From assembly GCA_946618395.1 (NCBI GenBank), contig CAMOLD010000003.1, forward strand, positions 1 to 32,882: a stretch of 32,882 bases of DNA, in the 5' to 3' direction. Source of the DNA: an uncultured Clostridia bacterium. GTDB lineage: Bacteria; Bacillota; Clostridia; Oscillospirales; CAG-272. How positions within the stretch are numbered: the stretch's first letter is position 1; each line of letters begins with the position of its first letter. The position numbers and the translations under genes are program-made. The notes under the pieces were generated by a model. It was not told the origin of the DNA. It saw only the letters and a list, made by a program, of their open reading frames with translations, and ran no database searches. Positions 10,997 through 30,670 of this stretch are shown here, one piece after another.

Positions 10997-11770
10997 TTAC
11001 AATTCTTTTCGGATTTTTTCCAGCGCGGCTTTTTCCAGGCGTGAGACCTGCGCTTGCGAAATGCCGATTTCCCCGGCAATTTCCATTTGCGTTTTATTGG
11101 CATAAAAGCGCAGTTGAATAATCTTTTTTTCGCGCTCCGAGAGCTTGTTGACCGCCTCGCGCAACACCATGTTTTCCAGCCATGCCTCGTCGCCACCCGA
11201 GGTGTCCGAAAGCTGATCCATCAAATAAAGCGCGTCGCCGCTATCGTTATAGACCGGCTCGTAGAGCGAGATTGGCTCCACAATCGCCTCCATGGCGCGC
11301 AGGACGGCTTCCCGCTTTTCCCCCATCCGCTCGGCAATCTCCTCCACGGTTGGCTCGCGCTCTTTTTGGGCAATCAATTCCTCGCGCGTTTGCAGCGCGC
11401 GGTAGGCAAGCTCCCGCACCGATCGGCTGACGCGAATGGCATTGTTATCGCGCAAATAGCGGCGGATCTCGCCAATGATCATGGGCACGGCATAGGTGGA
11501 AAATTTGACGTCCATATCCATATTGAAATGGTCCACCGCTTTGACCAGCCCGATGCACCCGACCTGAAACAAATCCTCCATGCTCTCGCGCCTGCCGGAA
11601 AACCGCTGAATGATGGAAAGCACCAGCCGCAAATTCCCATAAATCAAATCTTTTCTTGCGGTTTCGTCCCCCTCCCGGGCGCGGCGCAAAAGTTCGGTTT
11701 TTTCCTCCTCGGTCAGCACTTTGAGATCGGAGGTGTTGATTCCACAAATTTCCACTTTGAAGCGATACAT
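10997..11770 (-). CDS. sigG: Sporulation RNA polymerase sigma factor SigG
   Basis: 257 aa; KVEICGINTSDLKVLT N-terminus typical of SigG, DLFQVGCIGLVKAVDHFNMDMDVKFSTYAVPMIIGEIRRYLRDN, region 4 HTH. Confidence 0.94.
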   Translation of the reverse strand: MYRFKVEICGINTSDLKVLTEEEKTELLRRAREGDETARKDLIYGNLRLVLSIIQRFSGRRESMEDLFQVGCIGLVKAVDHFNMDMDVKFSTYAVPMIIGEIRRYLRDNNAIRVSRSVRELAYRALQTREELIAQKEREPTVEEIAERMGEKREAVLRAMEAIVEPISLYEPVYNDSGDALYLMDQLSDTSGGDEAWLENMVLREAVNKLSEREKKIIQLRFYANKTQMEIAGEIGISQAQVSRLEKAALEKIRKEL

Positions 11771-28595: not shown

Positions 28596-29618
28596 TTAGG
28601 AAGCTAGAAAAAGAGCCGATAAAGAAGCGCCGATTTTCTCGGCGGAGCGTTCTGCCTCTTCTGCAAAATTGCCGCCGCTTCCAATCAAAAGCGAAAGCGA
28701 AAGCTTTGCATATTGCTGATTTTGCGGAGTGGATTTGACGCGGATCCCGCGAAAAATGCCGGGCGTTTCCCGCTCCGCTTCTGTTTGAAGCGCCCTTGCC
28801 AGCGCCAAATTCTCTTGCCAGGCAGGGCATGAAGCGCCGCTTTCCCCGCTCCCAACAATCGCCAATACCTGCGCCGTAGGGTCATCAGCGTCCCCGGTCA
28901 CCGTTTTGATGTAATTTCCCTCGCCGTCAAAAAGCGAATCTCTGCCAACCGAGATTACCAACGAAATTTGCGGATGCTCACAAAGCGCTTTCCGAATCAG
29001 ATCTGCGCTGCGTTCCGAGCTTCCCAAATAGCCGCTCTCCGCTTCCTGCTCTTGAAAAATGACCGAAATTCCATGTTCGGTTAAAACATCGCAAAGCTTT
29101 TTAGCAACCGCGGAAATATTCCTTTGAGGATCGGCGGAAAAGGTCGCTTCCCCAGCTCCATCTTCCGGAATTTGCGCCTCCTTTTCCAAATAGGCTTCCG
29201 CCGGGTTGGCGCAATAAATCAAAACCACCGGCGGCGTTTCAAATAGGATTGGCACTTCCCCGGCGCTTGATTCTTCCGGCTTTGGCTCATATAGCGTTTT
29301 GGCAACAACGGGGATTGCGCTCTGCCCCTCTTCCGGCGGATTTTCGCTTGTTTCCGGGGCGGAAGAGGAAGGTTCGTCGCCGGCATTTTCCGGCTTTTGC
29401 TCGGTAACTCGTTCGCGGCGGAAAATCCCCTCAAAAAAGGTTTTTACCGGCGCACCAAAGGAGGTCCAAATACCGCTCACGGCAAATGCCGCAACCAAAA
29501 TCGCCGTGCAAACCAAAAAGGAGAGCAAGCGGAAAAGCCTTTTCCCAATGGGCTTTTGGAGTTTGACCTTTTCCGACGGAATGGGCAGCTGTTTTTTCAA
29601 ATCATCTTGTTTCATCAT
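28596..29618 (-). CDS. spoIIP: SpoIIP-like protein lacking recognisable catalytic motifs (start ambiguous: 29615, 29618 or upstream to 29651)
   Basis: N-terminal TM, Pro/Ser/Glu linker, then VLIYCANPAEAYLEKE, RNISAVAKKLCDVLTEHGISVIF, ISLVISVGRDSL, QVLAIVGSGESGASCPAWQENLALARALQTEAERETPGIFRGIRVK, NQQYAKLSLSLLIGSGGNFAEEAERSAEKI, which align with SpoIIP. Located directly after gpr. Confidence 0.8.
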   Translation of the reverse strand: MMKQDDLKKQLPIPSEKVKLQKPIGKRLFRLLSFLVCTAILVAAFAVSGIWTSFGAPVKTFFEGIFRRERVTEQKPENAGDEPSSSAPETSENPPEEGQSAIPVVAKTLYEPKPEESSAGEVPILFETPPVVLIYCANPAEAYLEKEAQIPEDGAGEATFSADPQRNISAVAKKLCDVLTEHGISVIFQEQEAESGYLGSSERSADLIRKALCEHPQISLVISVGRDSLFDGEGNYIKTVTGDADDPTAQVLAIVGSGESGASCPAWQENLALARALQTEAERETPGIFRGIRVKSTPQNQQYAKLSLSLLIGSGGNFAEEAERSAEKIGASLSALFLAS

Positions 29619-29684
29619 TTTTCTCCCCGTTTTTTGTTCCATTTTATGCAAAATACGGGGGTTTTATGTGGGAAAGATTCCTCC

Positions 29685-30584
29685 TCAATCGGTCAAATCT
29701 CCCAAAAAAGCAAGCGAAAGCGCACGGGAAAGAATTTTGGTCATTTGTTCGGTTACAACGTCGCATTCTTTCAGCGATACAAAAAAATCATTTCCGCTCC
29801 GCAATGCCGTTTGGAGCCGCTCGTCCGGCTCTCCGATTCCGGCTTTTGCAAGCGTATGCCAAATCAAGGTGGAGGTTGCAACCACCGTTGGGACGCCAAG
29901 CGCCAAAACCGGAACGCCAAGCGTTTCTTCGGTCAGTCCCTCGCGGTGATTGCCAACGCCGGAACCCGGAATAATGCCGGTGTCCGAAAGTTGCACCGTG
30001 GCGGCAAGGCGCTCCAAATCCCTTGCGGCAAGCGCGTCAATGGCAATAACAAGATCGGGCTTGCAGTTCTTTGCAACCGCGCGCACAATTTTTCCCGCCT
30101 CCATTCCGCTCTGCCCCAAAACACCCGGCGCCAGCATGGAAACCGCGCAACAACCCAGCGCATGGAAAAGCCCGGGGTCCTGCTCCCGCAAATGTGCGGT
30201 CGCATTCAGGCGGCAAAGCGTTCCCGGCCCGATCGCGTCCGCCGTCAAAGACGCGTTTCCAAGGCCGACAAGAAAAACGGAAAAGGTGGAATCCACACGT
30301 CTGCCGCAAACCCGCTCCGCAAATCCGCAAAGTTCGCCGCAAAGGATACGCGCAAGCATCTCGCGCTCTTCCGCGCCCAAAAAATCGATGCGGCCGCATT
30401 CAATCGTCAAATAATGCCCCATCGGCTTTCCAACGGCTTTTGCCCCCTCTTCGGAGAGGATTTTCACTGTATCAATCAAAAAAGGGCCGCTTTTTCGCCT
30501 TTCCTGCGCAATGCCTTTGCGCTGTTCCGCCGCTTCGGGAATGCACTCTTTCGCCAAATCGCTTTGCAAAAATCGTCTCTCCAT
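29685..30584 (-). CDS. gpr: Germination protease (spore protease GPR); start chosen at MERRFLQSDL
   Basis: LFLVGLGN-type segment VFLVGLGNASLTADAIGPGTLCRLNATAH, SMLAPGVLGQSGMEAGKIVRAVAKNCKPDLVIAIDALAARDLERLAATVQLSDTGIIPGSGVGNHREGLT. Confidence 0.95.
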   Translation of the reverse strand: MERRFLQSDLAKECIPEAAEQRKGIAQERRKSGPFLIDTVKILSEEGAKAVGKPMGHYLTIECGRIDFLGAEEREMLARILCGELCGFAERVCGRRVDSTFSVFLVGLGNASLTADAIGPGTLCRLNATAHLREQDPGLFHALGCCAVSMLAPGVLGQSGMEAGKIVRAVAKNCKPDLVIAIDALAARDLERLAATVQLSDTGIIPGSGVGNHREGLTEETLGVPVLALGVPTVVATSTLIWHTLAKAGIGEPDERLQTALRSGNDFFVSLKECDVVTEQMTKILSRALSLAFLGDLTD

Positions 30585-30619: not shown

Positions 30620-30649
30620 TACTTTTCCATAATTTTTTACAAAATATAC
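30620..30649 (-). promoter_or_regulatory. Candidate sigma-F/sigma-G promoter for gpr
   Basis: Minus strand: GTATA - 16 nt - GGAAAAGTA, about 36 nt upstream of the gpr ATG. Confidence 0.6.
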
Positions 30650-30670
30650 ACGAAAATCTTCTCTTTTCTA

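Follow-up and report, generated by a model that had tools for sequence, protein, structure and literature searches.

In the published view, the catalytic residues of SpoIIP, a member of the SpoIID-SpoIIM-SpoIIP complex, are conserved in every spore-former. The SpoIIP described here, like those of relatives that have lost the same histidines, contradicts this view, and the question raised by the locus is what such a protein may be: a remnant on its way out, an enzyme with another chemistry, or a protein kept for something other than bond cutting. The window, as we call the whole stretch of DNA analysed, counts 32,882 nucleotides and comes from an uncultured gut bacterium, whose genome is called G000 below.

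A SpoIIP homologue with a substituted active site

Positions 28596-29651 of the minus strand form a single uninterrupted ORF of 351 aa, as an earlier note on this sequence had described. That note let the gene begin with the TTG at 29651, a start we do not retain, as a conserved ATG is found at 29615 (residue 13 of the 351-aa ORF), and its Met is invariant in 7 relatives; the gene is, thus, placed at 28596..29615 (-) and codes for 339 aa. Its identity as a spoIIP, which had been proposed from the letters, is borne out by the adjoining gpr and by a match to the Pfam profile SpoIIP PF07454 (100.4 bits, 1.6e-28, cut-off 24.4) whose alignment spans profile positions 43-264 of 269; the score against NCBIfam TIGR02867, 93.3 bits, is under the cut-off of 123.15. 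It is the sole SpoIIP of its genome: the idea of a second active copy elsewhere was rejected, as no second SpoIIP was found in G000 (1.28 Mb, 92% complete) or in the other congeners that have lost the histidines. An N-terminal transmembrane helix, KRLFRLLSFLVCTAILVAAFAV (29478..29543, -), is given by the translation and by helix 25-46 of the structural model, and its A-F-A-V-S is invariant in 14 relatives. The NETxY segment preceding the SpoIIP domain is missing in seven members of the genus that have lost the histidines, window included.

The motifs of canonical congeners (HTHTSESY, DLHRD, and LLLEIGSGGN) were used as the reference for the active site. By translation and alignment, CANPAEAY (29190..29213, -) replaces HTHTSEAY, with C135 and N137 for the histidines and E140 and Y142 kept; SVGRD (28938..28952, -) replaces DLHRD, with G224 for the second essential histidine and R225 and D226 kept; and LSLLIGSGGNFAEE (28656..28697, -) replaces LLLEIGSGGNxxEE, with L310 for the glutamate and G312, N316, and E320 kept. 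Both essential histidines of SpoIIP, one in HTH and one in DxHRD, are, thus, gone (N137 and G224), as is the first histidine of HTH (C135); the glutamate of GgxxNxxxE, at the motif position given in the literature, is in place as E320 in SGGNFAEE. The first two motifs had been read in the same way in the earlier note. Its third motif is indeed altered at the LLLE glutamate, but was misaligned, SGGN being intact; the statement that all recognisable catalytic motifs are replaced holds for the two essential histidines, the first HTH histidine, and the LLLE glutamate, and has to be given up for E140 and E320.

In C. difficile, H142R or H222R abolishes amidase products and spores, with an arrest after asymmetric division (PMC6221140); H142 should correspond to N137 and H222 to G224 in the window, a mapping made from review text. 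The third catalytic residue given in the review for C. difficile, E309, sits in GgxxNxxxE and corresponds to E320. One has to be cautious with wordings such as “canonical metal site” or “zinc site lost”, because the C. difficile enzyme was found free of detectable metal by ICP-MS (PMC6221140): the earlier claim that the protein cannot use the canonical metal site is right in that the canonical histidines are gone, and calls for care where it speaks of a metal. Zinc ligands supplied from other positions, named in advance as something that would overturn the reading, are not evident. The loss of SpoIIP catalysis is, as far as sequence can tell, well supported, and we infer that the window protein lacks activity; some residual or altered activity may persist, because E320 and E140 remain.

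The first histidine of HTH is variable in Bacilli, and we found it repeatedly changed to Cys in SpoIIP that keep the two essential histidines (L008, L019, L135, and L144). Another divergent variant occurs in genus g48 (L130, L133, and L134), with DxHRM for DxHRD and Asp for the LLLE glutamate.

Distribution of the histidine loss

The classification of a SpoIIP as lost or kept rests on the two essential histidines, regardless of the first histidine of HTH; G011, G027, G038, G060, G106, G117, G145, and G203, in which both are kept, are not counted as lost. SpoIIP is present in 34 of the 35 genomes of the genus. Both histidines are gone in seven of them (G000, G001, G025, G028, G029, G032, and G033), and an eighth congener, G034, has lost one of the two. 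A family-wide search, followed by PF07454 on the weak-matching genomes, yielded further cases outside the genus, with both histidines gone (G036, G055, G091, G118, G123, G152, G209, and G244) or one (G104, G150, G193, and G263); these twelve genomes span five other genera of the family, and gpr is mostly still adjacent. One or both histidines are lost in 20 of the 66 aligned SpoIIP, which is not to be taken as a frequency, the sampling being biased to weak matches.

The four-species subclade of the window has a fixed motif, Y-C-x-N-[PS]-x-E-A-Y, together with [GS]-R-D-S and L-L-I-G-S-G, and similar substitutions recur in MAGs of other projects (L073-L079). Chance, assembly or sequencing error, and recent decay were considered and rejected, since the substitutions are shared by MAGs of independent origin and mark out a clade. 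Indeed, the absence of the histidines from the entire clade excludes both recent decay and sequencing error: the motifs of close relatives are not intact either, and their ORFs are uninterrupted. The earlier note, too, had argued against a fresh pseudogene.

In a tree built on an independent marker, a SpoIID-like PG_binding_1 protein, the His-lost genomes of the genus form one clade (100/100) with G034 basal; in that tree, the rows of G007 and G011 were badly extracted and have very long branches, and G033 is absent. The basal position of G034, with one histidine lost, suggests that the DxHRD histidine went before the other in the genus clade. Over the family, the GPR tree needs at least six changes between kept and lost, with an unsettled bootstrap and a few long branches.

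Sporulation genes and engulfment partners

The contig that carries the altered spoIIP also codes for SigG, the forespore sigma factor (10997..11770, -; NF006071 400.5 bits, cut-off 372). Among the 35 genomes of the genus, SASP was detected in 31, SpoIIIAE in 34, and SpoIVA in 31; SpoIIIAH was detected in G000 and relatives. SpoIVA was not detected in G000; it lies ~9-20 kb upstream of spoIIP in G025, G028, G029, and G033, and the equivalent position would fall past the end of the window contig.

Directly upstream of spoIIP, on the same strand and as had been noted before, lies gpr, coding for the spore germination protease (29685..30584, -; TIGR01441 249.7 bits, cut-off 120; PF03418 195.5 bits); the two genes adjoin co-directionally wherever both are on the retrieved stretch, intact and eroded cases alike. 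Upstream of gpr, we found a promoter-like element of the sigF/sigG forespore type, GTATA-N16-GGAAAAGTA (30620..30656, -), with one match in the window and 0 in 100 shuffles. Its general form, GTATA-N16-GGxAAAxTA, was found by comparing relatives and is conserved 5' of gpr in genomes with kept and with lost histidines; the window has no match to a fixed-spacing consensus for sigma F. The 37-base element as a whole (TTTTCRTGTATATTTTGT...GGxAAAxTA) is unusually conserved genus-wide, beyond the promoter hexamers. Because SigG, GPR, SASP, SpoIIIA, and the promoter element are kept, together with SpoIVA in relatives, the sporulation programme appears to be retained in the window lineage. The conserved operon of gpr and spoIIP probably drives the expression of spoIIP during sporulation.

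The picture is another one for the partners of SpoIIP. For SpoIIM, PF01944 has no match in any of the 35 genomes of the genus (0/35), species with an intact SpoIIP included, and it did match the B. subtilis control; no classical SpoIID was found in these 35 genomes, again including those with an intact SpoIIP. The sole SpoIID-domain protein has 464 aa and combines a weak SpoIID-like domain (24.8 bits) with PG_binding_1 repeats. The engulfment machine would, thus, be built differently, because SpoIIM and classical SpoIID are missing; of the two possibilities foreseen in the earlier note, another SpoIIP that is active or an engulfment that works differently, it is the latter that agrees with the genomes. 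A SpoIID-like protein of ~480 aa with PG_binding_1 is found genus-wide (L049:376-1770, -; equivalents in L043-L072) and could possibly be a SpoIID stand-in.

Strong SpoIID matches (E < 1e-12) are found in other genera, and in none of the 12 extra-genus genomes with lost histidines (0/12); both histidines are kept in 22/22 examined genomes with a strong SpoIID-domain match, G111 being left out for its weak match only. A Fisher test of strong SpoIID against histidine status gives p = 0.0023 for all genomes and 0.0005 for those outside the genus, to be taken as a lead only because the genomes were not sampled at random and are not independent of each other in phylogeny; many of the strong matches are proteins of 600-700 aa, which may not be the SpoIID of the DMP complex. 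In C. difficile, engulfment becomes asymmetric when SpoIID is lost, and this defect is relieved if SpoIIP is catalytically inactive (PMC6934232), which offers a possible reason for a loss of catalysis after that of SpoIID.

As for other wall hydrolases, a transmembrane-anchored LytM protein, whose HxxxD and HLH motifs are both intact, is found in G000, G001, G033, G028, G029, and G034. Its best NCBIfam match is SpoIIQ, and since the score, 64.5 bits, is far under the cut-off of 250, it is a candidate SpoIIQ only. Single-TM, SpoIIQ-like LytM (M23) proteins of this kind (L215:308-1093, +; L200-L218) keep the metal motif in genomes with lost histidines and are candidate engulfment hydrolases. A gain of extra amidases as a replacement was rejected: Amidase_3 is not expanded, with 1-2 copies in congeners that have lost the histidines and 1-4 in those that keep them.

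Selection, fold, and possible roles of the altered protein

A lineage that is losing sporulation or engulfment could carry a partnerless SpoIIP that drifts and is kept for a while by time lag or by mild structural constraint. Such a slow relic would fit the graded erosion in the family (one histidine or both lost), where SpoIIP could not be detected in some members and several have small genomes (1.1-1.7 Mb); it would also fit the missing NETxY segment in the window clade and a somewhat raised dN relative to GPR. Indeed, SpoIIP outpaces GPR ~1.7-1.8x at nonsynonymous sites (1.0-1.9 in intact pairs), so that some relaxation is possible. Selection on the gene, however, makes this explanation unlikely. 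The SpoIIP ORFs are intact in all 7 species with synonymous divergence near saturation; between those of G000, G001, G032, and G033, with dN at 0.32-0.41 and dS at 1.2-2.8, dN/dS comes to about 0.14-0.26, which is rough because dS is near saturation, and third codon positions carry ~2x as many differences as first and second positions. The new motif common to four species is fixed, and SigG, SASP, SpoIIIA, and GPR are kept, with SpoIVA in relatives. Judging by these substitution patterns, the His-lost SpoIIP is maintained by purifying selection.

What selection has kept can be seen in an eroded set of 28 sequences, which follows an earlier and broader classification: E140, Y142, R225, and an AQ pair are kept in 93-96% and G312 in 100%, versus 25% for the first HTH histidine, 46% for the second, and 29% for that of DxHRD. 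Because pocket residues stay and histidines go, the pattern fits a putative binding cleft that is retained around a catalytic centre that is lost. Could SpoIIP still be a hydrolase through other residues (e.g., C135, E140, R225, and E320), with a metal or with none? In its favour, ICP-MS showed no metal in the C. difficile enzyme (PMC6221140), which leaves room for another chemistry, all four species of the subclade have Cys135 and Asn137, and E140 and E320 are kept; we nevertheless consider this quite improbable, as the substitutes at the three histidine positions vary among eroded species (C/N/G, V/R/G, H/C/R, and C/Y/G), whereas a single new active site common to them would not be expected to vary so, and single histidine substitutions kill the C. 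difficile enzyme (PMC6221140). Least probable of all is a function outside engulfment, in which the forespore would make the protein together with GPR and use it to bind the wall, be it in the spore wall or in germination: the likely co-transcription with gpr from a forespore-type promoter element and the absence of SpoIIM and SpoIID would suit it, but in C. difficile, too, it is forespore sigma F that directs the synthesis of SpoIIP, which yet serves engulfment (PMC7924749), and nothing points specifically to germination.

The structural model of the window SpoIIP has a modest mean pLDDT of 72 (78.5 for the canonical model), and Amidase_3 structures are the best PDB fold matches of both; for the window model, 5emi is among them (E 2.1e-7), and the TM-score normalised by target is about 0.5-0.6 for many matches. 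Profile-profile alignment of SpoIIP with the genus's own Amidase_3 proteins gave no useful similarity. By sequence, fold, gpr-spoIIP synteny, and N-terminal membrane anchor, the protein is an orthologue of the SpoIIP of the SpoIID-SpoIIM-SpoIIP complex and shares the framework E140, R225, G312, and N316 with canonical SpoIIP, from which it differs by its replaced residues (both essential histidines, the first HTH histidine, and the LLLE glutamate), by the lack of NETxY, and by the absence of its partners SpoIID and SpoIIM. The Amidase_3 amidases (CwlV, CwlD, AmiA/B/C, and Rv3717) share the fold of the model, but the window protein is without the SpoIIP active-site histidines. EnvC and the degenerate LytM amidase activators are non-catalytic hydrolase folds that regulate wall cutting, and the AmiB-EnvC complex is among the fold matches of the window model; unlike these systems, the window lineage gives no sign of an activated partner amidase. 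A precedent for a wall-hydrolase fold used in engulfment minus its catalytic site is SpoIIQ of B. subtilis, which belongs to the LytM family and takes part in engulfment although its metal site is not intact, in contrast to the intact SpoIIQ of C. difficile (PMC4982068); fold and gene are others, and the situation here is reversed, with the SpoIIQ-like metal motif intact and the SpoIIP site lost.

Our best reading, which we hold with moderate confidence, is that of a non-catalytic, membrane-anchored, wall-binding SpoIIP kept after the loss of SpoIID. The orthologue would have retained its anchor and its Amidase_3-like fold and lost the amidase residues; its former substrate cleft, in which E140, Y142, R225, G312, and N316 are retained, would still bind peptidoglycan, and the protein would presumably act as a membrane-anchored tether or scaffold in engulfment. 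Bond cutting, so far as needed, would be left to compensating enzymes, the top candidate being the SpoIIQ-like LytM with its intact metal motif, alongside which the SpoIIIAH zipper and wall synthesis would work. SpoIIM and SpoIID would have been lost first, because they are absent genus-wide, even where SpoIIP is intact; the cutting of an unpartnered SpoIIP may then have been dispensable or harmful, and its catalytic residues would have been lost several times in the family. More tentatively, we propose that in spore-formers of this Oscillospiraceae-like family SpoIIP became a non-catalytic scaffold several independent times, only in genera without classical SpoIID, and that engulfment is completed there without SpoIIDMP cutting, probably by SpoIIQ-type LytM and wall synthesis instead.

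None of the papers searched joins SpoIIP with “pseudoenzyme”, and the published engulfment surveys that we found have gene presence/absence as their subject. What is new here would be a known protein family in an altered form, with a putative functional consequence. Tables of engulfment-gene presence/absence, when used for predicting spore-formers in gut metagenomes, can mask such a loss of function. A conserved, inactive-looking SpoIIP in lineages where sporulation genes are kept allows its structural role to be told apart from its enzymatic one, and engulfment on wall synthesis and another hydrolase becomes a testable idea: this uncultured gut bacterium and its relatives may carry out spore engulfment by a modified route.
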